Shown: positions 4,973 to 28,320 of the stretch, one piece after another
Position numbering within the stretch: the stretch's first letter is position 1
Layout: every line of letters starts with the position of its first letter
Virus record (IMG/VR): IMGVR_UViG_3300025483_000043
Coordinates: 1-32,695 of that record
Origin: a virus
Direction: 5' to 3' (one strand)
DNA: 32,695 bases
Translations under genes and position numbers: made by a program
The notes under the pieces: model-generated
What the model was told of the DNA's origin: nothing
What the model saw: the letters and a program-made list of their open reading frames with translations, nothing else
Databases searched by the model: none

Positions 4973-7486
4973 CTACGGTGTTCTTGTAGAAGTTAAACCA
5001 GGGTTTGTGCTTGCTGCTACACCAGTGTAAGTTTCTTTTGTAGCGTTGTAGTTCTGGAATACTTGTGCTGCTGTTAGTGCTCTTGGATAGATACGAACTT
5101 CGCCAATTCTGCCATCCCAATAAAATCCACTGGGACTTATAGTTCTGTACCCAATAGAACTTCCAGAGAAATTGTGAGTGGTATTAGTTCCAGTATTGGT
5201 CCATATCTGTATTCCGTCAGCATATCCAGTAATAGTGTTACCAGATCTTGTTATTATATAATGCCTCCATGTATTGTTAGGTAGGTTTCCAAAAGATCTA
5301 TTACCAATTTCATTTGAATAATATATTAATTCTAGCTGAGAATTTATGGTAGTAAATTGGAATGTTTGTCCGTTCGGTAAAGACCAAATCGTATTTGATG
5401 CTGGTTGAACATCAGTCCATACCCAAGTTTCATACGTAAAATCTCCAGCAAATGTTAGATTAGAATTAGTGGGCAGTTGGATATAATCATCCCCTCCATC
5501 AAACTCCCAGTATCCAGCGGCGTTGTGGGTGGCACCATTCACTACACCATCATTACCTTTACCTGATTGATCTAACCATCCTTCAAGGGGATCAAGTAAA
5601 ATAACTCCATCAACTTCAATAGCAGCAATTCTAGAGAAAGAATTATTGTGTGTCCAAGTTATATTACTAATAGTTTTTCCACCAGCACCCGTAATGTCAT
5701 ACCATTTGAATGTATTGTCAGCAGTAAAACTATTAAAAGTAGAAGTATCTGTAAAAGTAACAGTGATGTTATCAGTCCCAGCTTCTCTAGCAGCATATAA
5801 TCTTAGAGAAGTTCCTACTGCCAATCCCCCAGATGGTGTCCAAGTCAATGAAGTTCCGTTTAAAGCGGTCGTCCAGTTGTTGAGGTTTCCATCAAACGCA
5901 TGTTCTTTTGGATTGGAACTATTGAATTGTGTTCCACTAATCTGACTTGTGTAATCGGTGCCAGATGCATCAGCAATACCAGTGTCGCCCAACAGGTTCA
6001 ACTCTTGGAAGTCAGCAGGTCTAATAGCAGGACCACCACTATACTCAAAGCTATCAGCACTATCCATCTGTCTCCTCTTGTTAGAGACATGAGTAGCAAG
6101 GTCGTCAAAGAGAATTTTGTTAGCGTTGAATGGATAGGCGACAAGATCACTTGTGTCATTCCTCACAGAACCATCTGATAGTCTACCAATTTGATCTGGA
6201 GTGCTTATGATTTGATATTCAATAGTTGTAGATCCATCAGAAGAATATTCAAAATCCCCAAGTCCATTACCAGACGTACTTACTTTACCAAAAGTATACG
6301 TAGTAGGGTCTTGACCACCAATTACTTCATCATTAAAAAGTAGGTAATAAAAAGATGGGTCGGCATCTAAACTTACGTTATAAAATCGCAAGCTTGAATC
6401 TCTCGAACTTTCAAGAAACCTTCTCCAAACACGATCTCCATTCTTAGAATATTTACTTAAGACTCCCCTCTGGATGAGTATTCCACCTGAAGTTGTTCCA
6501 AAAACAACTACTTGTTCTGTCTCGCTATCTGAAAATACTTGATCAAAAGTAAAACTAATAGAAAGACCTTCGTCAGTTTGTTTTTGCCAAATAATATTAC
6601 CTTCTGCTGTATATTTAATAATGAATCCATGATTAGATTTGTTTCCTACGATATAAATTTGACCATTAGAATCAATAAAAATATCTTTACACTCAACATC
6701 TTGGTATGGATTCGCTCCGACGGTAGGATCATATTGTGATTTGATAGTTCTATCCCATAGAACTTCTCCTGTACTAGAATCAATCTTAACAATATATCCT
6801 TTTTTGGCACTATCATCTTCTAGATAACCAACAGCAACTACTTCTCCTCTACTATTAGAAGTAATCTTAGTAAGAACAGCATCTCGTCCGAGCATTAAAG
6901 CAGACTTACCCCATCCAGGGTTGCCATTACTATCAAATTTTTCTACAAATGCTACTGCTGCACCTGATTCTGGTGTATTACCACAAGCATAATAGTTTCC
7001 GTTGCTATCTGATGTAACACCTGTATACTCTACATCTCCAGTATAAGATGTTGATTGCCAGTCAAGTACACCAGCATTAGAATACTTAGCAATATAAGGT
7101 GCTACTGTTCCATAGTCACCATTCACACCACCAGATTTACCAACAACAATTATATCATTATTACTATCTAACTCGATGGTAGTTAGAGTTAGAGCACTGT
7201 TGTATACAGTTGGATTTATTCTAACTCCCCACTCCTCTGTTGATGTCCCACTCCCCCCATTATAGTCTCTTTTTTCTACCCAACCAAATGAATCATTTCC
7301 CAATCCCGTGCCCGACAGAAGAAATTTTTGATCCAAATAATTATATTTAATTTGACTTGTAAGAAATTGTCCTTCATTTGGATTAGAGGACTTATCAATT
7401 GCTTTGAAAAAATTTGTTACTGCTTCTGCTCCAGACGAACCTAAAAGAAAAAGGTTTCTGGCGGCACTACTAAATCCTGCTGGCAT
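4973..7486 (-). CDS. propeller-repeat and LamG-domain virion/adhesion protein, 837 aa
   Basis: Residues about 55-440 contain repeated units of the type 'G..Y..KY...G...W.....', such as GYIVKIDSSTGEVLWDRT and GFIIKYTAEGNIIWQKQ. This is the pattern of bacterial SBBP-type beta-propeller repeats. A middle segment (about 500-620) resembles a galactose-binding or discoidin-like beta sandwich (EHAFDGNLNNWTT). Residues about 625-815 form a LamG/concanavalin-like jelly roll, with GYWEFDGGDDYIQLP at its start, NTWRHYIITRSGN in the middle and GRIGEVRIYPRALTAAQV at its end. Such domains bind sugars or proteins, so a host-surface-binding fibre or accessory adhesin is likely. GAGGA 8 nt before the ATG overlaps the stop of the upstream 1172-aa gene, so the two are probably co-translated. 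The 778-aa protein in this window also has a LamG domain. Confidence 0.85.
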   Translation of the reverse strand: MPAGFSSAARNLFLLGSSGAEAVTNFFKAIDKSSNPNEGQFLTSQIKYNYLDQKFLLSGTGLGNDSFGWVEKRDYNGGSGTSTEEWGVRINPTVYNSALTLTTIELDSNNDIIVVGKSGGVNGDYGTVAPYIAKYSNAGVLDWQSTSYTGDVEYTGVTSDSNGNYYACGNTPESGAAVAFVEKFDSNGNPGWGKSALMLGRDAVLTKITSNSRGEVVAVGYLEDDSAKKGYIVKIDSSTGEVLWDRTIKSQYDPTVGANPYQDVECKDIFIDSNGQIYIVGNKSNHGFIIKYTAEGNIIWQKQTDEGLSISFTFDQVFSDSETEQVVVFGTTSGGILIQRGVLSKYSKNGDRVWRRFLESSRDSSLRFYNVSLDADPSFYYLLFNDEVIGGQDPTTYTFGKVSTSGNGLGDFEYSSDGSTTIEYQIISTPDQIGRLSDGSVRNDTSDLVAYPFNANKILFDDLATHVSNKRRQMDSADSFEYSGGPAIRPADFQELNLLGDTGIADASGTDYTSQISGTQFNSSNPKEHAFDGNLNNWTTALNGTSLTWTPSGGLAVGTSLRLYAAREAGTDNITVTFTDTSTFNSFTADNTFKWYDITGAGGKTISNITWTHNNSFSRIAAIEVDGVILLDPLEGWLDQSGKGNDGVVNGATHNAAGYWEFDGGDDYIQLPTNSNLTFAGDFTYETWVWTDVQPASNTIWSLPNGQTFQFTTINSQLELIYYSNEIGNRSFGNLPNNTWRHYIITRSGNTITGYADGIQIWTNTGTNTTHNFSGSSIGYRTISPSGFYWDGRIGEVRIYPRALTAAQVFQNYNATKETYTGVAASTNPGLTSTRTP

Positions 7487-7496
7487 TTATCTATCC

Positions 7497-10400
7497 TCAA
7501 CTGAAGTCTGTGTTGCCTTGTCCGAATACTCTGGTGACACCAGAATTATCTCGAACGATTACAAAGGTAAGAATATCAGTATTTGATGTAGAGATTGGTG
7601 GAGAACCGCCAGACCATCTAACACCATTCGTTACTGATGTTCCATCAACAGAACAAGCATCACCATAGGTCGCAGCAGTGTTAGAATCCAATATAACTGT
7701 TAGAGTAATCGACTGTCCATTGACCAAATTGACTCCAGTAAATGCCCACTCATTAATTGCGGATGTTGCTGGAGTACCAAGAATCGTGTTGCTTCCTGCT
7801 ACATTAAGAGTAATAATATTTGCTGATGGAGTTAATGTAGTATTGAAACTGTTGAATACTTTCTCAACTACTCTGCCACCTAAATTAGTAGCACCATCAA
7901 CATCTAGTCCAGTCAGTGTGCCAACAGATGTGAGTGAAGAATTAACAACAGTCGATCCAAGTGTTGTAGCATCTAGTGCAAGTTGGTTACCGATAACAAA
8001 CTTCTTACCTAGTGCAATCTCAAGGTTCTCAGAGAATACCCAATACTTATCAGTTCTACTGTGGTCATAAAGAATAGTCTTATCAACAGAACCCTTAACA
8101 ATTATTCCACCACCATCAGCTGCAAGATCAGATGGACCAGATGCAGTAAAGGTTGCTGTGCCACTACCAGTTACAGAGTTAGAAAGAACTGCAGTGTTAT
8201 TTGTAATAGAAACAATAGTTGTTCCAACAGGAACACTGATGCCACCAGTAGTAGAATTGACTTCCATACCAGGAATCAATCCTGCTGTTGGAGTGATAGC
8301 AGAAATTCCAGTTGTATTATCTACAGTAACTGCTTGGAAAGTTGTATTGACAACAGCAGCAAGTTCAATGTTCTTGTCATCAACTGACATGACGTTTGAA
8401 TTTACTGTCGTGGTTGTACCATTGACAGTCAATGATCCTTGAATCAAGGTGTCACCATTAACGGTAAAGTCATTAGGGATAGTTACCTTAAAGTTACTAT
8501 CACCATTAATCCAAGACTCTGTTCCAGAACCAATAACTAACTGTCTATCTCCACCAATATTTGGTGGTGCATATGTAGCATTAGTTGAGTTCTCATCATC
8601 AGCAGGACCAATAAGAACGTTTCCATTTCCAGTGATAGCATAACCAGCATAGTGACCAATACAAACATTGGCATCACCTGTAGTGGCAATCTCCATTGAG
8701 TTACTACCAATAGAAACGTTCTTAGCACCATTAAGGTTGCCAAGTTGAGATGAACTACCAATCGCTACGTTGTCAGCAGCAATACCACCAACAGGTAATG
8801 CATTGTATCCGATCGCTACGTTATCATCTCCAGTATTGATAGTTCCAAGAGCAGAGTATCCGAACGCAGTGTTTCTTGCACCAGAAATATTGCTTTGAAG
8901 AGCATCGAATCCAACTCTAGTGTTTGAAACTACTGCTCCGCCACCTCTACCAATTCTAATAGGATTGCTGCCACCACGAATTAAGATGTCTGCATTCTCT
9001 GAGTTAAGAGTACCATTGATAGTAATGTTATCAGAAATTCCTGTGCCAACAGTTAAGTCTTCAGTGACAACTAGATTCTGATTGATGTTGAATGTTCCAC
9101 CAACAGCACCCATGTTGATGGTTGTCGCGGCACCAAATGCAGTGATGGTTGTCGCAGCAGCATTTAGTAAAGTGAATGTGCCAGATGTAGTAGCGATTCC
9201 AGTTAAGATTGTTGGGTTTGTCTGGAAGACAAGACGATCAAGACCAGTAGTATCACTAATCAATCCACGAAGTTGTGTAGAGGTTGTGGAAGAGAACGAT
9301 GCAAGTGTATCTGATCTGTATGCTACGTTACCACCCTGTCTAAAGTTGATTGAAATTTGTGATCCATTATTATCACTAGTAAATAGAAGACTTCTATCAG
9401 CTTTAACTGCTTTAGTTGCCGATACCTCAAAGGATGCGGACGCAGTAGATACAATTTCTAATCCGTTAATAGAAGTAGCAGTAGCAGCTCCAAGAACTGG
9501 AGCACTCAGCGTAGGAGCGGTTAAAGTTTTGTTAGTGAGAACTTGTGTCTCATTTTCTGTTACAAATCTATTAGCAATAGATCCATCAAAAGATCTCCAG
9601 TATCCACCAGACTCATACCACTGCAGTTGTTGATATGATGCTACATTCTCATTGGCATCTGTTGTTCTATTGACTTGGATACCACCATCCGCACCAACTA
9701 AACTTGGACCCCTTCTCAATTCAATAATATTATCTTCTACAACCAATGTAGTGGTGTTTAAAATAGTTTGGTTTCCAGTTACAAGTAAGTCGCCACCAAT
9801 GGTAACAGTAGATCCATCATCTTCTATCAAACTATTTGCAAACTGATTGTTTCCACTATCCCATTTCAGGACTTTGTTGCCAGTGAAGTTTGTATTATTT
9901 TTTAATTGGAAATCATTTACTACTTTAATGATACCACCAGATGAAGTCAGAGATCCACCAGTATTGGTATCTGTAGAACTAATATCAATTGTAGTAACTC
10001 CACCAGAAGAAGTTGCAGTAAGACTGGTAGCACCAGAAGAAGTAAGTCTAAACTCTCCAGCAGAAAGAACTTCAGAATTTGCTGCTAGTTTTGTAACAGT
10101 ATCGCTATCAGTAGAATCAACTGTAATCGTTTGACCACTCTGAGAAACTGTGCAGTTAGTTCCACCAACAACTCGTACCTGTCCAGATACTGGAGTAGCA
10201 GTCAAACCACCAGCAATTTCAGTAACTGTGTTATCAGAATCTACTGTAATTGTTGGATTATTTGCACCATCAGTTCCTTGAATAACTTGAGTTGCACCAC
10301 CACCAAGGAACGTAAAATCTCCATCTACATAAGTGTTACCTGTAGTTGCTCTGAGTCTAGTAATAGTATCAGTATCTGTAGCAGTAATTGTAATTACTTG

Positions 10401-11015
10401 TCCAGATTGCGACACAGAAGCAGCAGATGCTGCAGCAATTCTAACTACTCCACTAACAGCAGTACCACCAGTGTCTGCCTGAACTGTAGTGATAGTATTA
10501 GTGTCAGTAAATGATGATGCTAGTGTAATCTCATCTCCATTTCTGGAGATAGTCATGTTTGTTCCAGCAACAATACTAACATCATCCGAAGTAGAATCAG
10601 ACCCAGTTAATCTAATTGTCTTTGTGTCTGATGTTAGTCCATCAATCACTGATACTTGATAAGTAGTATCAGAGCTAGTAATATCAATAGTCCCACCAAG
10701 AACAACTTCCGATCCATTAATCGTGATCGAAGAATTAATCAAAGAAGCATTCGGAATACTAGAAATAGTATTAGCAGATGCAGAAATTGTACAGTTTTGA
10801 AGAGTTTTATTTGTTAGTGTCTGTACCGTGGTTAGATATACATCTCCAGGAGTGTCCCAGAATACCCCACTGCCGTCACTCGTTAAATACTTTCCAGCAC
10901 CAGTATCCCCACTGACAACAATACCATTACCAGTAAAATCTAAATTGTCACCTGATACAAGTTCTTCAATCTTCTTGGATACAGAGTTAACAATTAACGG
11001 AAAACGATCAGCCAT
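7497..11015 (-). CDS. long tail fibre with YadA-head-like repeats, 1172 aa
   Basis: The N-terminus (MADRFPLIVNSVSKKIEEL) and a following segment with the recurring string TNKTL resemble cyanophage fibre proteins. Residues about 170-350 are repeats of roughly 50 residues with a 'SGQ.ITI...DTDT.T.L' pattern. Around residues 695-810 there are short repeats such as NTAFGYSALG, DNVAIGYNAL, DNVAIGSSSQ and KNVSIGSNSM. These match the left-handed beta-roll repeat of YadA-type trimeric adhesin heads. The C-terminal about 120 residues (WSGGSPPISTSNTDI, ending FGQGNTDFS) form a separate domain that I recall at the ends of cyanophage fibres. Length, repetitiveness and lack of enzyme motifs fit a trimeric host-binding fibre. 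Only a weak ribosome-binding site is visible. Confidence 0.85.
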   Translation of the reverse strand: MADRFPLIVNSVSKKIEELVSGDNLDFTGNGIVVSGDTGAGKYLTSDGSGVFWDTPGDVYLTTVQTLTNKTLQNCTISASANTISSIPNASLINSSITINGSEVVLGGTIDITSSDTTYQVSVIDGLTSDTKTIRLTGSDSTSDDVSIVAGTNMTISRNGDEITLASSFTDTNTITTVQADTGGTAVSGVVRIAAASAASVSQSGQVITITATDTDTITRLRATTGNTYVDGDFTFLGGGATQVIQGTDGANNPTITVDSDNTVTEIAGGLTATPVSGQVRVVGGTNCTVSQSGQTITVDSTDSDTVTKLAANSEVLSAGEFRLTSSGATSLTATSSGGVTTIDISSTDTNTGGSLTSSGGIIKVVNDFQLKNNTNFTGNKVLKWDSGNNQFANSLIEDDGSTVTIGGDLLVTGNQTILNTTTLVVEDNIIELRRGPSLVGADGGIQVNRTTDANENVASYQQLQWYESGGYWRSFDGSIANRFVTENETQVLTNKTLTAPTLSAPVLGAATATSINGLEIVSTASASFEVSATKAVKADRSLLFTSDNNGSQISINFRQGGNVAYRSDTLASFSSTTSTQLRGLISDTTGLDRLVFQTNPTILTGIATTSGTFTLLNAAATTITAFGAATTINMGAVGGTFNINQNLVVTEDLTVGTGISDNITINGTLNSENADILIRGGSNPIRIGRGGGAVVSNTRVGFDALQSNISGARNTAFGYSALGTINTGDDNVAIGYNALPVGGIAADNVAIGSSSQLGNLNGAKNVSIGSNSMEIATTGDANVCIGHYAGYAITGNGNVLIGPADDENSTNATYAPPNIGGDRQLVIGSGTESWINGDSNFKVTIPNDFTVNGDTLIQGSLTVNGTTTTVNSNVMSVDDKNIELAAVVNTTFQAVTVDNTTGISAITPTAGLIPGMEVNSTTGGISVPVGTTIVSITNNTAVLSNSVTGSGTATFTASGPSDLAADGGGIIVKGSVDKTILYDHSRTDKYWVFSENLEIALGKKFVIGNQLALDATTLGSTVVNSSLTSVGTLTGLDVDGATNLGGRVVEKVFNSFNTTLTPSANIITLNVAGSNTILGTPATSAINEWAFTGVNLVNGQSITLTVILDSNTAATYGDACSVDGTSVTNGVRWSGGSPPISTSNTDILTFVIVRDNSGVTRVFGQGNTDFS

Positions 11016-11057: not shown

Positions 11058-13121
11058 TCAGGAGACAACGATCTGTCCAACCATTCCACCATGGAACTGA
11101 CAAATGTAATAATATGTTCCTGGTGCTACACCTGCCGTATCCCAAGTTACTGTTCCTACTGTACTTCCTTGTCCAGTAACAGTTCCAGTGGTAACTTGAT
11201 TACCTGTTCCAGTACTAGCAGATGTCTTGATATAGAATGGATGTCCCGATGCATTTACATTGAAACGTAATACATCACCAACGTTACAAGTGATTGTTGG
11301 ATCATTCGCATTGCTGTGAGATGTCGTGGAATCTGATCCAGTAAATACATAGTGACTTGCTCCACTGTTAGTCACAGTAAATGTATATGTATTTACAGAT
11401 GATGTGGGTGCTGGTGCATTAATAACAGAAATTCTAGGGAATGTTTGTCCAGTAGTTCTATTTCCTTTTTGCTGTTGAATAAATCCACTAACAGATCTTG
11501 GATTTTTAATGCGAAGATACTTGTTAGGACTTCCCATACGAGAACTATCGTCATCAAATCCACCACCAGCAGTATCAAATGTCATGTCACCGTAGATACT
11601 AAACTGATTCAAGTATCCCAAAGCATCTTCTTGTGTAAATCTTTCTTTGCCAGTAGCAAGACAAGCAATCACACCACAAACCTGCGGTGATGCCATACTA
11701 GTCCCACTAGCAGTAAAATAATAGTTGCCACCTCCACCATATTTGGTGTCATTAAATCCTCCCGTATTACCATATGCAGAAAGAATTTGATCACCAGGAG
11801 CAAAGACATCAACAGCAGGTCCAAACATAGTATAAGTAGATCTTCTAAAGTCAGCAGAGTCAGACAATGCACCTACGATGATAGCACCGCTATCAGGTGT
11901 ATTAGGACAACCTCCTCTATTATAATAAAAAGTTTCGTTCTCTCCATTCTTAAAAATTACAAGACTATTATCATAATCTTGATCTCCTACTTCTGCTATC
12001 AATAAATTATCATTGCCAGCAGATCCAATAACCACAACGCCATCAGCAATTGCATCCTGCACATCAGATATGATTGCGGCATTCCATGCTGGATATTCTG
12101 AAAGACCAAATCTCACACCAAAATCAGATTCTACTCCAGCTTCAGTCCAACCAGATGGTCCAGGATTATTTGCATCATATGTTACTCCACGAAAATTTAC
12201 AGCAACTAAATCAGGAAAGTCTAATCTGTAAATGATCCCACCTTCCCCATCAGTTCCTTTGCTTGGCATTCGAATAATGCCACTGTAACTATGATTACTA
12301 ATAGTAGGATTTCTTTTTCCTGTTTCAGGATTGATCGCTTTATTTAAATGAAACGCTCGTAAGTAGTCAAAGATAAGAAGAAGAGGAATTACCTGTCCGC
12401 TATCCCAGAAATCTGTTACAGAAAGGTTGTAAATGTTTGCTTCTGTTGCCCATCCATAATGCCGACCAGCAACAGTTCCCGCTACATGGTTACCATGATA
12501 CTGAGGTGTATTAAGATTAGGAGTATAGACAATTGTTCCTATTGGTTCGAATTGATTATCGTCATCAATACTAGTAGCAATAGAATTTAAATCATCCATC
12601 CATTGATACTCAACAAATCTACTTTGACCTGGGTTAGATGGACTTAACCACTCCTGACTATCATAAGATACAGGGTCATCTACAATAACAACATCTACAT
12701 GTCTGCCATTATTAAATACTTCTACGGTATCAGTTACAACTTCATTTGTTGGAGATGATCCGTCACCCCAACTTCCTTTTCTTTTTTGTGCTTGATTTCC
12801 AGCACAATGAAGATGACCCCATTGTCTCAGGTTAGGATTGAGAGTAGAGGATGGCGGAGCATTTTTAAAAAAATCACCAGAGATAACATATGGTTCGTTA
12901 TTAACTACGTGTCTTTTGATATGAATATTATCTACTGTTTCGACTGCCAACACCCTATGATCTTGGCGCAGTCTCTCTGCCTGATCGGCAGTCATCATAT
13001 AATGAGTGTTCCTACTAATAGGACGCTTCTTTACAAGAGGAAAGTTAGTAAGATACATCTCATTGTAAAACTGCTCCAGGTCTTCCTTCCTGTGGAGCGT
13101 TACAACGTATTCCTTATCCAT
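11058..13121 (-). CDS. subtilisin-like serine protease with C-terminal cupredoxin domain, 687 aa
   Basis: Residues about 1-75 resemble an I9-type prodomain (EYVVTLHRKEDLEQFYNEMY). The S8 protease domain spans about 140-545. The catalytic residues are visible: Asp148 or Asp149 (VDVVIVDD), His209 (YHGNHVAGTVAG), the oxyanion Asn370 (IGSAGN) and Ser475 (SGTSMASP). Residues about 575-687 look like a plastocyanin/azurin-type cupredoxin, with candidate type-1 copper ligands His627 (SGHPFYIKT), Cys674, His677 and Met680 (YYICQFHGGM). There is no signal peptide, so it is probably a virion-bound enzyme. It starts 1 nt after the 360-aa fibre-like gene, with GAGG well placed inside that gene's stop region. 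It may process virion proteins or degrade host surface proteins. The copper domain may instead be a metal-free structural fold. Confidence 0.88.
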   Translation of the reverse strand: MDKEYVVTLHRKEDLEQFYNEMYLTNFPLVKKRPISRNTHYMMTADQAERLRQDHRVLAVETVDNIHIKRHVVNNEPYVISGDFFKNAPPSSTLNPNLRQWGHLHCAGNQAQKRKGSWGDGSSPTNEVVTDTVEVFNNGRHVDVVIVDDPVSYDSQEWLSPSNPGQSRFVEYQWMDDLNSIATSIDDDNQFEPIGTIVYTPNLNTPQYHGNHVAGTVAGRHYGWATEANIYNLSVTDFWDSGQVIPLLLIFDYLRAFHLNKAINPETGKRNPTISNHSYSGIIRMPSKGTDGEGGIIYRLDFPDLVAVNFRGVTYDANNPGPSGWTEAGVESDFGVRFGLSEYPAWNAAIISDVQDAIADGVVVIGSAGNDNLLIAEVGDQDYDNSLVIFKNGENETFYYNRGGCPNTPDSGAIIVGALSDSADFRRSTYTMFGPAVDVFAPGDQILSAYGNTGGFNDTKYGGGGNYYFTASGTSMASPQVCGVIACLATGKERFTQEDALGYLNQFSIYGDMTFDTAGGGFDDDSSRMGSPNKYLRIKNPRSVSGFIQQQKGNRTTGQTFPRISVINAPAPTSSVNTYTFTVTNSGASHYVFTGSDSTTSHSNANDPTITCNVGDVLRFNVNASGHPFYIKTSASTGTGNQVTTGTVTGQGSTVGTVTWDTAGVAPGTYYYICQFHGGMVGQIVVS

Positions 13122-13122
13122 A

Positions 13123-14205
13123 TCAAGCCTCTAGTTGAACGTAAGTAAGAGTTACTGTAACATTAGCAGTAGCACCACTCTTATTTACAACCTTAGCATA
13201 AGTTGTTCCCGTTGCATTAGCATTGTATGCAATTGTTCCAGGAGAAATTAGTTGAGTGGTAGCACCCGTAGTAATAACTTCTGCAATCACACCAGAACCA
13301 GGAGTGGGATCTGTGGTTTCTGATCTACCACCATCATTTGTTCTGCTAGTGGTATCTGTGTAAAGAGTAACCCAAGCAGCATGTGATGTCTCGATTTTCA
13401 GCAGAGCGTATGCAGGAGGTGTTGTTATAGAAACAGCAGCATCCGAACCATCAGGAAGAGATGCTGCTGTGATTTGAGATGTTGTTCTAGACTGCAATGG
13501 TGTTCCAGGTGTGCTCCAGTTAGCACCAGTTGCATTTCCTGATCCATCATTACCTGTTGCAGTAATAACCTGACCTGCTACACCAGTATTAGAATCAAAA
13601 GAAATAGTAACAGGAAACCCGCCATTAGTTAGTTCTAAACTTCCTCCTGCTCCCAGTCCTTCAAGTTGTACAATACTTGGAGTACCAGTACCAGGATCTC
13701 CAACACCAAAGTAAGCAGTGCTAAGAGTGCTAACTAAAGATGCCGAATTAGTATTATTAACCCATCCAGGTATGCCAGAGTTATATACCAACACATCCCC
13801 ATCTTGGACATTGCTAACAGTGACATCAGATAAAGAATCGACTGTAACTGAGAAATCTGTATTTTCCCATGCAAGATTAGAAGAATTATATCTAAGAACT
13901 TGATCTGCTTGTGGATTTACAATTGATACATCACTATGATTACTTACTGAACCATAAAGAGTTAAATATGAGGACAGATCAGGTGGAGTATAACTAAAAT
14001 CTCCAGTGTTACTATCATATGCCAATGATCCACCACCAGAAGCAGTAGCATTGGTAACACTAAAAACTGTTAGATTGGTAGCAGTAGCACCAGACCCAGC
14101 AGCAGTCCAACTCTCTCCGTTCCACGAGTAAGTAATACCTGCTACAACATAGGTAAATGTTCCATCAGTTGCCTGCCCTGCTGTTGAGGGAAAATTGATT
14201 GCCAT
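13123..14205 (-). CDS. fibre-like virion protein, 360 aa
   Basis: The N-terminal about 40 residues (MAINFPSTAGQATDGTFTY...YSWNGESW) match the start of the adjacent 778-aa protein in pattern ('M A . . F P ... G.T(W/Y) .(W/Y)(N/D)G..W'). The middle repeats 'SDVTVSNVQDGDVLVYNSG..GW' twice (about 90-115 and 123-150), a motif also present in the 993- and 778-aa proteins. The C-terminal about 105 residues, with the landmark DPTPGSGVIAEV, are clearly homologous to the C-terminus of the 993-aa fibre (DPTPGSGVISEV). It therefore looks like a short mosaic of modules from its neighbours. An AAGGAG sequence lies about 12 nt before the ATG. A role as a fibre tip or short fibre is inferred. Confidence 0.82.
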   Translation of the reverse strand: MAINFPSTAGQATDGTFTYVVAGITYSWNGESWTAAGSGATATNLTVFSVTNATASGGGSLAYDSNTGDFSYTPPDLSSYLTLYGSVSNHSDVSIVNPQADQVLRYNSSNLAWENTDFSVTVDSLSDVTVSNVQDGDVLVYNSGIPGWVNNTNSASLVSTLSTAYFGVGDPGTGTPSIVQLEGLGAGGSLELTNGGFPVTISFDSNTGVAGQVITATGNDGSGNATGANWSTPGTPLQSRTTSQITAASLPDGSDAAVSITTPPAYALLKIETSHAAWVTLYTDTTSRTNDGGRSETTDPTPGSGVIAEVITTGATTQLISPGTIAYNANATGTTYAKVVNKSGATANVTVTLTYVQLEA

Positions 14206-16607: not shown

Positions 16608-16874
16608 TTATCTATTATAGTAACCTCTTGGGAAGAGTAATCCAAAACTAGGTCTTCTTCCTGTGAGGAATCCACGACGCGCACTCACATCACTACTAGC
16701 AGATTCAAAGTCATCAATATTATAATTATATGGCGTAGATACACTACTAGCAATTCTATCTACACCAGAATACTCTGGTGTAATAACAGCAGTAGCAGTG
16801 TTAGCAAGAAATCTAATCTGATCATATCCAGATGCCGCTGTGTCTGGAGTTTCGGATAGTGTTATGTTTGCCAT
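16608..16874 (-). CDS. small virion-associated protein, 88 aa, second copy of a duplicated gene
   Basis: Its start overlaps the stop of the 783-aa gene by one base (TGATG). It is clearly paralogous to the 95-aa gene at 19259-19546: both begin with a short beta-rich segment (ITLSETPDTAASG / IILSEAPDAPADS) and contain a central YNYNIDDFE / QNFDINDLD segment. Both end in a nearly identical basic-aromatic tail, GRRPSFGLLFPRGYYNR here and GRRPYFGLLFPRGYYNR there. The conserved tail and strict pairing with the preceding large gene suggest that it binds or assembles its partner, for example as a chaperone or a small fibre subunit. That is inference. Confidence 0.8.
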   Translation of the reverse strand: MANITLSETPDTAASGYDQIRFLANTATAVITPEYSGVDRIASSVSTPYNYNIDDFESASSDVSARRGFLTGRRPSFGLLFPRGYYNR

Positions 16875-19225
16875 CAGTTTATACGAGCGAGGAACAGCAT
16901 ACCAATAGCACTACTATTAATTACACCATCAAGACCAGCTTGATTGGTATCATATCCAGCTAAGATAACTTCATATATTTCAGAAGGACTAATTGTTACA
17001 GTATCTCCTGGTCTGAATGTAGTTTGTCCTGGTGTGGTAGAGAACTGAAGCATAACAAAATCATCAGGTAGATAATAAGGACATGGAGCTATGTTATGTG
17101 CTATAGGAATACCTTTGATTGGTCTATAGTAATCAGCATTAGTGCTCATACTATAGTCACCATATCTATCATAGGTACTGTTCCTATAGTAAGTCATGAC
17201 TTGATTATCAGTAGTCTCATTATTATCTGTTTTAATATTACAAGCATACTTTGTTCCGAATTGATAACTGTTTGTATCTCTAGCAAATCCATAACTAGAT
17301 TCTCTAGCTTTCGATGATGAGGATACAGGTTCCGCACCTGACATGTCAGTCAATGTACCATAATATCCTGGGATATAATAATACGTATTAACAACTCTAG
17401 ATTGACCTACAGGAACCTCATATGTTGATATTGTTCCAAGGAATACATCATCTAAATCCCATAGGTTAGTTCCAAATCCAGCACCTTTATGAATGGTAAA
17501 TGCTCCATATGGAATAATAACTTCATTAACCGTTTGACAGAATTGAATGATAGCAAAGTTAGTATCCTGTGGTGCCTGTGCTCTATACACTCTGATGCTC
17601 ATTGGATAAGCATTTGGTGTTAATGTAGTAGCAATAGGAATTCTCGTCCATGCTGCGTTAGCAGATCTATTGATGTACTCTCTAGATAGGCTTTTATCCA
17701 AACCAACGACACCACCAAATTGTCCATAATTAGTCTGACCATTGGTGCTGACAGTTTTAGTTCCGTAACGATTCATCCATTCCCAATGATTGCCGCTATT
17801 AATATACAAATGAGTGTCACCATGGTTTGATGTTCCAAATGTATAATATGAAGTGCCATATCTTTTACTGGCATCATTGACTACTTTCAGAACGGCAAAT
17901 TCACCAGTGTCACTCTTCTGATAAAAATTAGATCCAGATCCAAGATTAGTAACATGCACCTCACATATTCCATCATTCGCATTGGATGATGTTTCTGGAG
18001 TAGCGACTCCAAATCTAAGATCATCTTCTGGAGTAGAACCACCAATCTGATCACCAGGAATTGTAAATACTTCTCCGTTTGACCATCCACTACCTATACT
18101 ATTAATTAAAATTTGTTGAATGTGTCCATATAGATGGTCTCGGTAAATTCTTAGTTTTAATTCAGATCTACCGCCACTAGCAGGGACAGTATATTTCCAA
18201 TAATCATCTATGCCAGAATTATTTTGTAATGCTGGACTAATTACAATTTCACCTTTCATAGCAGACTCTGTGCTGCTACAATAAATGTATTTTGTTAGTC
18301 CATAATTGCTAAAAATTTTTTCGGTATTAGATCTAAAATCTATAGGAATTTGTTCATCGGGAAGATTCTTTTCGTTTTCTGATTGGTACCAATAAGCTCC
18401 GTTGAAAGTACATGTTCCAGAAGAGATATTATCATTAGTTGGTATAGCAGCCAGTCCTGGGGAACCAACAATATCTCTCCAACTAGGAGTGGTTAAAAGT
18501 TTATTTGCATCATAGTCATCAGTTCCGCCACAAAGGTTAAAGGTACCACCACTAGTATCATCCACAGCGAAGTAAATAACATCACCTGATTCAATATTAA
18601 TTGTGCGGTTATCAAAAGAAGCATCATTAATATCTCTAAAATTATAACCAGTGTTAGATTTAAGAGCAGAGGTGCTTGCCCAACCGCCATAACTCAGTGT
18701 AATCGCAGTATCATTAGCAGCATCTGTAGCGTTTGCGGCTAGTTTAAAGTAATCATCATCAACAACAATTATATAATAAATTGTATCTAATGTGAGACCA
18801 GCAACATTTTGAGTCTCTATTGTTCCACCAGGAGCCCAATGAACTGCTTGACCCGTAGTAAATCCATGTCCATCAATTCTAATCTCATTTGGGTGAGTTG
18901 GATCAGTATCAGCATAAAAATAATATGCACTTGTGACACGATGCTCTTTCAGCATTCTATAAGCAGTAGTCCCCTGACTGATTACAGTATAGTAATGACT
19001 AGTATAAGCAGTAATTGGAAGATCTCTAGAGGCAGTATCAAATCCACCAGTATTATAAGTAAGACTGCCAGTTGGCGATCCCACCCATTGAGGAACTCCA
19101 CTTATACCAGTACCACCGTGCATTCCCAAGTTAGCAAAGACAGTTTCCAATGCATCAATTACATTTTCTTTTGTCCAACCAGAGTTGCCGTTATTGACAT
19201 CCACTACCGATCTTAAGATTGCCAT
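16874..19225 (-). CDS. large virion protein, 783 aa, second copy of a duplicated gene
   Basis: It is a paralogue of the 781-aa protein encoded just upstream. The N-terminal 45 residues (SVVDVNNGNSGWTKENVIDA), a central block (NVAGLTLDTIYYIIVVDD, FKLAANATDAAND), the GDQIGGSTPEDD segment, RVYRAQAPQDTNFAIIQFCQ and the last 60 residues (YYLPDDFVMLQFSTTPGQT) align throughout. Residues about 48-85 and the segment near 620-660 differ most. It is Tyr/Asn/Gly-rich with no signal peptide or catalytic motif, which fits a large beta-structured virion protein. A CTAAATA element at 19252-19258 lies about 30 nt before the start. I recall similar proteins in marine T4-like phages without a defined role. Confidence 0.84.
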   Translation of the reverse strand: MAILRSVVDVNNGNSGWTKENVIDALETVFANLGMHGGTGISGVPQWVGSPTGSLTYNTGGFDTASRDLPITAYTSHYYTVISQGTTAYRMLKEHRVTSAYYFYADTDPTHPNEIRIDGHGFTTGQAVHWAPGGTIETQNVAGLTLDTIYYIIVVDDDYFKLAANATDAANDTAITLSYGGWASTSALKSNTGYNFRDINDASFDNRTINIESGDVIYFAVDDTSGGTFNLCGGTDDYDANKLLTTPSWRDIVGSPGLAAIPTNDNISSGTCTFNGAYWYQSENEKNLPDEQIPIDFRSNTEKIFSNYGLTKYIYCSSTESAMKGEIVISPALQNNSGIDDYWKYTVPASGGRSELKLRIYRDHLYGHIQQILINSIGSGWSNGEVFTIPGDQIGGSTPEDDLRFGVATPETSSNANDGICEVHVTNLGSGSNFYQKSDTGEFAVLKVVNDASKRYGTSYYTFGTSNHGDTHLYINSGNHWEWMNRYGTKTVSTNGQTNYGQFGGVVGLDKSLSREYINRSANAAWTRIPIATTLTPNAYPMSIRVYRAQAPQDTNFAIIQFCQTVNEVIIPYGAFTIHKGAGFGTNLWDLDDVFLGTISTYEVPVGQSRVVNTYYYIPGYYGTLTDMSGAEPVSSSSKARESSYGFARDTNSYQFGTKYACNIKTDNNETTDNQVMTYYRNSTYDRYGDYSMSTNADYYRPIKGIPIAHNIAPCPYYLPDDFVMLQFSTTPGQTTFRPGDTVTISPSEIYEVILAGYDTNQAGLDGVINSSAIGMLFLARIN

Positions 19226-28008: not shown

Positions 28009-28080
28009 TGCTCGAAGAGGGGATCGAACCCCCGACAACTTGAATGTAAATCAAGTGTTCTACCGCTGAACTATTCGAGC
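28009..28080 (-). tRNA. tRNA-Val (anticodon UAC)
   Basis: The acceptor stem GCTCGAA/TTCGAGC, D arm, anticodon stem CTTGA/TCAAG with loop TTTACAT, and T arm with TTCGATC are all present. The anticodon TAC reads GUA. The discriminator is A. No CCA is encoded (TTA follows), so it relies on host CCA addition. Confidence 0.93.
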
Positions 28081-28083
28081 GTA

Positions 28084-28155
28084 CTCCCTCTCCTGGATTC
28101 GAACCAGGGACCAAGCGATTAACAGTCGCTCGCTCTACCGCTGAGCTAAGAAGGA
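28084..28155 (-). tRNA. tRNA-Asn (anticodon GUU)
   Basis: The acceptor stem TCCTTCT/AGAGGGA (G.T pair included), anticodon stem AGCGA/TCGCT with loop CTGTTAA, and the T loop TTCGAAT are present. The anticodon GTT reads AAC/AAU. The discriminator is G and no CCA is encoded. The terminal T-A pair is unusual but base-paired. Confidence 0.92.
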
Positions 28156-28159
28156 TTAG

Positions 28160-28242
28160 TGTCGGTAAGAGGACTTGAACCTCCACGTCATAAAGACACT
28201 GGTACCTAAAACCAGCGCGTCTACCAATTCCGCCATACCGAC
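28160..28242 (-). tRNA. tRNA-Leu (anticodon UAG)
   Basis: At 83 nt with a long variable arm (TGTCTTTATGACGT) it is a class II tRNA. The acceptor stem is GTCGGTA/TACCGAC and the anticodon stem CTGGT/ACCAG has the loop TTTAGGT. The anticodon TAG reads CUA. The discriminator is A and no CCA is encoded. Confidence 0.93.
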
Positions 28243-28246
28243 AAGG

Positions 28247-28320
28247 CGACTCAAGTAGGATTCGAACCTACGACCGACTCTTTAGAAGAGAGTTGCTCTA
28301 TCCAGCTGAGCTATTGAGTC
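28247..28320 (-). tRNA. tRNA-Arg (anticodon UCU)
   Basis: The acceptor stem GACTCAA/TTGAGTC, anticodon stem ACTCT/AGAGT with loop CTTCTAA, and T stem GTAGG/CCTAC are present. The anticodon TCT reads AGA/AGG. The 3' end reads G then CCT, so the CCA is not fully encoded. AGA is well used in AT-rich phage genes. Confidence 0.93.

Follow-up and report, generated by a model that had tools for sequence, protein, structure and literature searches.

What does a subtilisin-like protease with a copper-protein-like domain do among the fibre genes of a cyanophage? The question is raised by one gene in a stretch of viral DNA of 32,695 nucleotides, analysed here at its full length (the window). By gene content the 32.7-kb source record is of the T4-like cyanophage type. 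Its gene order runs from nrdA/nrdB through four tRNAs and transaldolase to large fibre and structural genes in series on the minus strand, among which are the protease gene and its downstream neighbour.

11058-13121, minus strand: S8A subtilase with C-terminal cupredoxin, 687 aa, start codon ATG, full-length match to phrog_9158
7497-11015, minus strand: large virion structural protein downstream of the protease gene, phrog_6002, in synteny with S-H9-1 and S-RSM4

The gene neighbourhood bears out the placement of the protease among fibre and structural genes in the first-pass annotation. In S-H9-1, S-RSM4 and S-WAM2 as well, synteny places the protease locus beside fibre genes and genes of large structural proteins, and the record of the neighbouring protein in S-H9-1 and S-RSM4 notes similarity to an S-PM2 protein found by mass spectrometry. 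No promoter or terminator of the protease's own was detected above shuffle expectation. The cultured relatives nearest to the protease are Synechococcus myoviruses (63-74% identity), several of them annotated as "subtilisin-like serine protease". Because GenBank already annotates S8 in these nearest relatives, the S8 part is not new. Elsewhere in the window, tRNA genes for Val, Asn, Leu and Arg stand in a row (28009-28320, minus strand) beside transaldolase and 2OG-oxygenase genes, as they do in related cyanophages.

Is the enzyme intact? The 687-aa protein was modelled with AF2 from 36 window and locus sequences (mean pLDDT 83.8), and its residues were compared across 110 aligned proteases of about 30-77% identity (the window reference and 109 non-redundant sequences).

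11493-12890, minus strand: mature-protease fold, aa 78-543 (VIA-align Z 32-34)
12678-12680, minus strand: catalytic Asp148 (Asp in 110/110)
12495-12497, minus strand: catalytic His209 (110/110)
12012-12014, minus strand: oxyanion-hole Asn370 (110/110)
11697-11699, minus strand: catalytic Ser475 in GTSMASP (110/110)

Peptidase_S8 (PF00082) matched residues 142-499 above the Pfam gathering score (E=4e-18). In structural alignment, residues 78-543 of the model scored Z values of about 32-34 against aqualysin, proteinase K and keratinase (rmsd 2.2-2.8 A, ~275 residues), with residue 78 falling on the first residue of mature aqualysin and proteinase K. The Asp-His-Ser triad occurs in the S8A contexts D-x-x, HGxHVAG and GTSMASP, together with the oxyanion Asn. 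That all four residues are kept in every aligned protease speaks for a catalytic function. The earlier description of an active-looking S8 protease was supported by domain match, fold and catalytic residues. The catalytic set had been given as Asp148/149, His209, Asn370 and Ser475; all of these residues are at the positions named and 148, 209, 370 and 475 are invariant, but position 149 varies (D/G/S/N/A/Q) across the 110 sequences, which rules out Asp149 as a catalytic residue. As judged from sequence and model, the ORF product is an S8A (proteinase K-like) protease, putatively active.

The protease fold is flanked by two further segments.

12936-13115, minus strand: N-domain, aa 3-62, I9 propeptide-like (AF2 model)
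11400-11492, minus strand: linker, aa 544-574, predicted disordered (low pLDDT), following the C-terminal segment of the S8 fold and containing a TFPR motif

The N-domain lies ahead of the mature enzyme and is called I9-like from topology in the full-protein AF2 model, where it is predicted as beta-alpha-beta-beta-alpha-beta (E3-9 H12-24 E29-31 E38-43 H45-52 E57-62). It contains a near-invariant RPxSRNTHY motif. Inhibitor_I9 (PF05922) is its commonest Pfam match, a weak one found in 7 of 19 members (best E 0.0018) and not in the window member. The protease begins without an evident signal peptide. Mean pairwise identity is 0.571 for the N-domain as compared to 0.511 for the S8 core, and N-domain identity was higher than or equal to that of the core in 4373 of 5995 pairs. 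Propeptides usually change faster than their enzymes. A domain more conserved than its core therefore plausibly reflects a retained role such as docking. At the other end, pLDDT falls under 50 for residues 543-574. A conserved segment near 518-568 was considered as a mobile module and rejected in part, since the model places 506-543 at the end of the S8 fold; this implies that the cupredoxins of some relatives are inserted before that last segment.

The C-terminal domain had been read as a cupredoxin with a full type-1 copper ligand set.

11061-11393, minus strand: cupredoxin, aa 577-687, ligands H627, C674, H677 and M680 (fold model and ligand conservation)

Structure prediction, the check proposed in the first-pass annotation, returned a cupredoxin beta-sandwich. 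Residues 575-687 (113 aa) modelled alone gave a pLDDT of 97.8, and the best solved match was the N-terminal domain of Hyphomicrobium copper nitrite reductase (CuNIR; Z 11.1, 2.0 A, 93 residues), followed by rusticyanin (Z 10.3). The Copper-bind Pfam match to the domain falls just under the cut-off. The four ligands are at the positions reported, in a His...Cys-x2-His-x2-Met spacing that we take to be amicyanin-like, and the HCHM set is intact in 118 of 120 non-identical cupredoxin domains. Part of the loci had been fetched by a pattern spanning the Cys and His ligands, so the count was repeated on two other sets: HCHM was found in 24/26 domains that lack the scan patterns and in 44/44 new domains from loci fetched through a neighbouring gene, a sample not selected on ligands. 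The fusion observation is confirmed and is not due to chance. Ligand loss mostly removes both His and the Cys at once and spares the fold motif around them; examples are L030 (TSSA), a fibre domain of L073 and the majority of the g781 family (described below). L042 keeps one His. Joint loss with the motif kept is the pattern expected of selection for metal binding that was later dropped in some copies.

Cupredoxins also occur without a protease, in fibre and baseplate proteins. The 37-kb Prochlorococcus podovirus P-SCSP2 (L087, Autographiviridae) has a cupredoxin of the same family at 6001-6333, so the family is not restricted to myoviruses. In S-BM3 (L080:6257-14203), a 2648-aa protein annotated as peptidase S8 carries this cupredoxin, possibly as an independent combination. 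Two alternatives were considered. The cyanophage plastocyanin petE is a stand-alone auxiliary metabolic gene serving host photosynthesis, which the domain here does not resemble in being fused to a protease within a fibre cluster. A scan of cellular genome contigs with one 7-residue pattern, a weak test, gave 56 stretches with no cellular relative of the cupredoxin among them, and lent no support to a cellular origin.

The linkage of protease and cupredoxin had been called unusual, which did not hold: the same architecture was found in 49 ORFs from one sample, and the fusion is the usual form of the Synechococcus-myovirus family phrog_9158. The number of cupredoxins per protease ranges from 0 to 5, and on a tree of 109 protease cores their presence changed by at least 10 gains or losses on well-supported branches. 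At L171:640-2988, next to L012 on the tree, a Laminin_G_3 (LamG_3) lectin-like domain replaces the cupredoxin (E 7e-23). An alpha/beta-hydrolase stands between protease and cupredoxin in 10 non-identical ORFs, including that of the cultured phage S-MbCM7, whose hydrolase hit a feruloyl esterase of solved structure (E 2e-8); all four hydrolases aligned keep the GxSxG, Asp and His unchanged. By comparison of these sequences, the cupredoxin is a swappable tip, present in 0-5 copies and replaced once by a lectin-like domain. Being dispensable, it probably serves as an accessory and not in catalysis itself.

Individual loci illustrate these arrangements. Five successive cupredoxin (or partial) domains follow one protease at L028:863-3937; its sister L023 has none. 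ORFs joining S8, a feruloyl-esterase-like hydrolase and a cupredoxin are L091:5977-8907, L035, L096, L223, L224, L106, L107, L180, L194 and L202.

How might such an enzyme be held on a virion? The gene directly upstream offers a candidate.

13123-14205, minus strand: partner gene, 360-aa fibre-type protein directly upstream of the protease (same arrangement in 67/72 loci)
13126-13590, minus strand: conserved C-terminal domain of the partner ("CTD"), aa 206-360 (conserved across loci)

The partner's TGA and the protease's ATG are 1 nt apart in the window, and a gap of exactly 1 nt is also the most frequent across loci. Seventy-five protease loci were fetched through the protease or the cupredoxin; three were cut by contig ends, leaving 72 to be scored. 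A gene with the CTD (~150 aa) is directly upstream of the protease in 67 of these 72, all fetched without using the CTD, and the five exceptions belong to one divergent clade. Conversely, 80 loci were fetched through the CTD alone, of which 78 CTD genes could be classified: an S8 gene is directly downstream in 74 and a g781-type gene in 4. As these 80 loci were the nearest to the CTD of the window, the pairing rate may be lower among more distant CTDs. The S-H38 and S-CREM1 partners open with T4_gp9_10_N, the T4 gp9/gp10 baseplate N-domain (E 9e-8 and 3e-7), and in both phages the pair has baseplate wedge genes around it. Through this N-domain and the wedge neighbours, gene content links the pair to the tail, and the two proteins would then be physically associated with it. 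Gene order suggests that the CTD may contact the protease. The CTD could equally be a protease substrate. A structure search returned no convincing solved relative of the CTD.

We favour, with somewhat better than even confidence, a protease carried on the virion of a T4-like cyanophage that would act at the cell surface and trim host surface proteins. The N-terminal part of the partner would anchor to the baseplate or a tail fibre and its CTD would hold the protease. The I9-like N-domain would fold and inhibit the protease and, given its unusual conservation, would probably also dock it. On adsorption, the protease would cut proteins of the host outer layer, while the disordered linker would let the C-terminal modules bind or modify the same surface; here the module is a cupredoxin, and relatives have an esterase, a lectin-like domain or cupredoxin arrays. 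The copper of the cupredoxin would most likely lock or stabilise the tip, or join in binding, rather than transfer electrons.

The strongest competitor for the same observations, which we nevertheless judge unlikely, is a protease of assembly or maturation that would cleave the partner or neighbouring fibres in morphogenesis (for example with the CTD as an intramolecular chaperone) and need not remain on the virion. Such an enzyme would agree with the triad invariant in 110/110, the strict co-linearity with one upstream domain (the CTD), the I9-like zymogen domain and the absence of an evident N-terminal signal peptide. However, a lectin-like domain, an esterase and up to five cupredoxins on one polypeptide are unexpected for a soluble enzyme. 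The lectin-like and feruloyl-esterase-like additions are easier to reconcile with an enzyme that works on surfaces than with one of phage assembly. Accordingly, of the two roles proposed in the first-pass annotation, attack on the host surface is the better option, and self-processing of fibres is less supported. Two observations count against the favoured reading: the protease family goes unmentioned in the available parts of the published virion proteomics of S-SM1, S-CREM2 and S-SZBM1, and the divergent clade of five loci lacks the CTD gene.

The tip itself could instead be a redox or copper-handling device, causing oxidative damage to the host surface or gating protease activation by copper. 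HCHM retention (118/120 and 44/44) and the mostly joint loss of His, Cys and His with the fold motif kept, as for metal binding, speak for it; no electron-transfer partner was seen, and repeated gain and loss, fivefold copies and lectin-like replacement are the behaviour of a binding tip, so that we regard this role as improbable. Still less probable is that S8 and cupredoxin serve as structural building blocks, the protease fold being kept without activity as the selected function. Phage tails often recruit enzyme folds, which counts in favour of this idea, as does the loss of cupredoxin ligands in g781-family sisters that keep the gene; that Asp, His, Asn and Ser are all kept in 110/110 would be difficult to account for if catalysis played no part. 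Returning to the surface protease, a more specific version can be put forward tentatively, at a little under even chance: a two-gene "armed tail" cassette, widespread in marine cyanomyoviruses, in which a baseplate or fibre anchor with a conserved docking domain would carry an active, self-inhibited protease against host surface proteins, its exchanged C-terminal tips being arrays that bind copper, a lectin-like domain or a feruloyl-esterase-like hydrolase, and copper would tune the tip.

Comparison with known systems places these features. The phrog_9158 proteins of S-H9-1 and S-WAM2 ("subtilisin-like serine protease") are of the same family and in the same gene neighbourhood as that of the window; those of S-RSM4, ACG-2014e/i/j and S-CAM4 share this family and neighbourhood and are annotated as hypothetical proteins. 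Unlike the window protein, the S-WAM2 and S-RSM4 homologues have no cupredoxin. The GenBank records of phrog_9158 take function no further than protease and mention neither the cupredoxin nor the partner gene. With proteinase K and aqualysin (MEROPS S8A, I9 propeptide) the phage protein has in common the fold (Z about 33), the triad, the oxyanion Asn and an I9-like N-domain; it differs in having no evident signal peptide, an N-domain more conserved than the core, a cupredoxin tip and a fibre-gene neighbour. Rusticyanin, the Hyphomicrobium CuNIR N-domain, plastocyanin and amicyanin share fold and type-1 ligand set with the phage domain, which in contrast belongs to a virion module, occurs in 0-5 tandem copies and has no redox partner in sight. 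Virion-borne depolymerases and esterases on phage tailspikes act on the host surface; the present case differs in being a protease with a separate coupled gene and exchangeable cupredoxin, lectin-like or esterase modules. P-SSM2 has an S8 peptidase among tail-fibre genes (PSSM2_297), as in the window, but its match to the window protease is limited to residues 128-504 at 28%, and it gave no match to the N-domain or cupredoxin profiles. The S8 peptidase T4-GC518 is also found in cyanophages, P-HM1 and P-HM2 (PMC3037559), and is likened here by description alone. A role in anti-phage defence was dismissed, PADLOC giving only a weak generic subtilase match.

A literature search, mostly outside subscription journals, found no paper on the S8-cupredoxin fusion, the gene pairing or the tip exchange, and none joining phage tail fiber with cupredoxin or with S8 peptidase. 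New here are the protease-CTD gene pairing, seen in both search directions, the swappable cupredoxin tip with its lectin-like replacement and esterase addition, and the N-domain conservation exceeding that of the protease core. To our knowledge, the majority of virion-borne enzymes target sugars or peptidoglycan. The results suggest a tail-borne protein-cutting enzyme with exchanged tips in many marine cyanobacterial viruses. If so, a tail protease that stays catalytically intact throughout a family of marine phages would implicate Synechococcus surface proteins as a barrier or receptor, a testable partner protein would be at hand, and the recurrence of copper-protein-like domains in cyanophage structural genes would be explained.

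The CTD occurs a second time in the window. A 993-aa fibre (21897-24878, minus strand) ends in the same CTD and is followed after 5 nt by the gene of a 781-aa protein, a second pair of CTD and adjacent gene with another payload. The 781-aa protein and a 783-aa one are tandem paralogues (19546-21891 and 16874-19225, minus strand; 50% identity), and each is followed by a small protein (19259-19546 and 16608-16874, 44% identical). In this g781 family (~780 aa), the cupredoxin ligands are intact in S-H9-1 and Sf-CH1b and degenerate in this phage.
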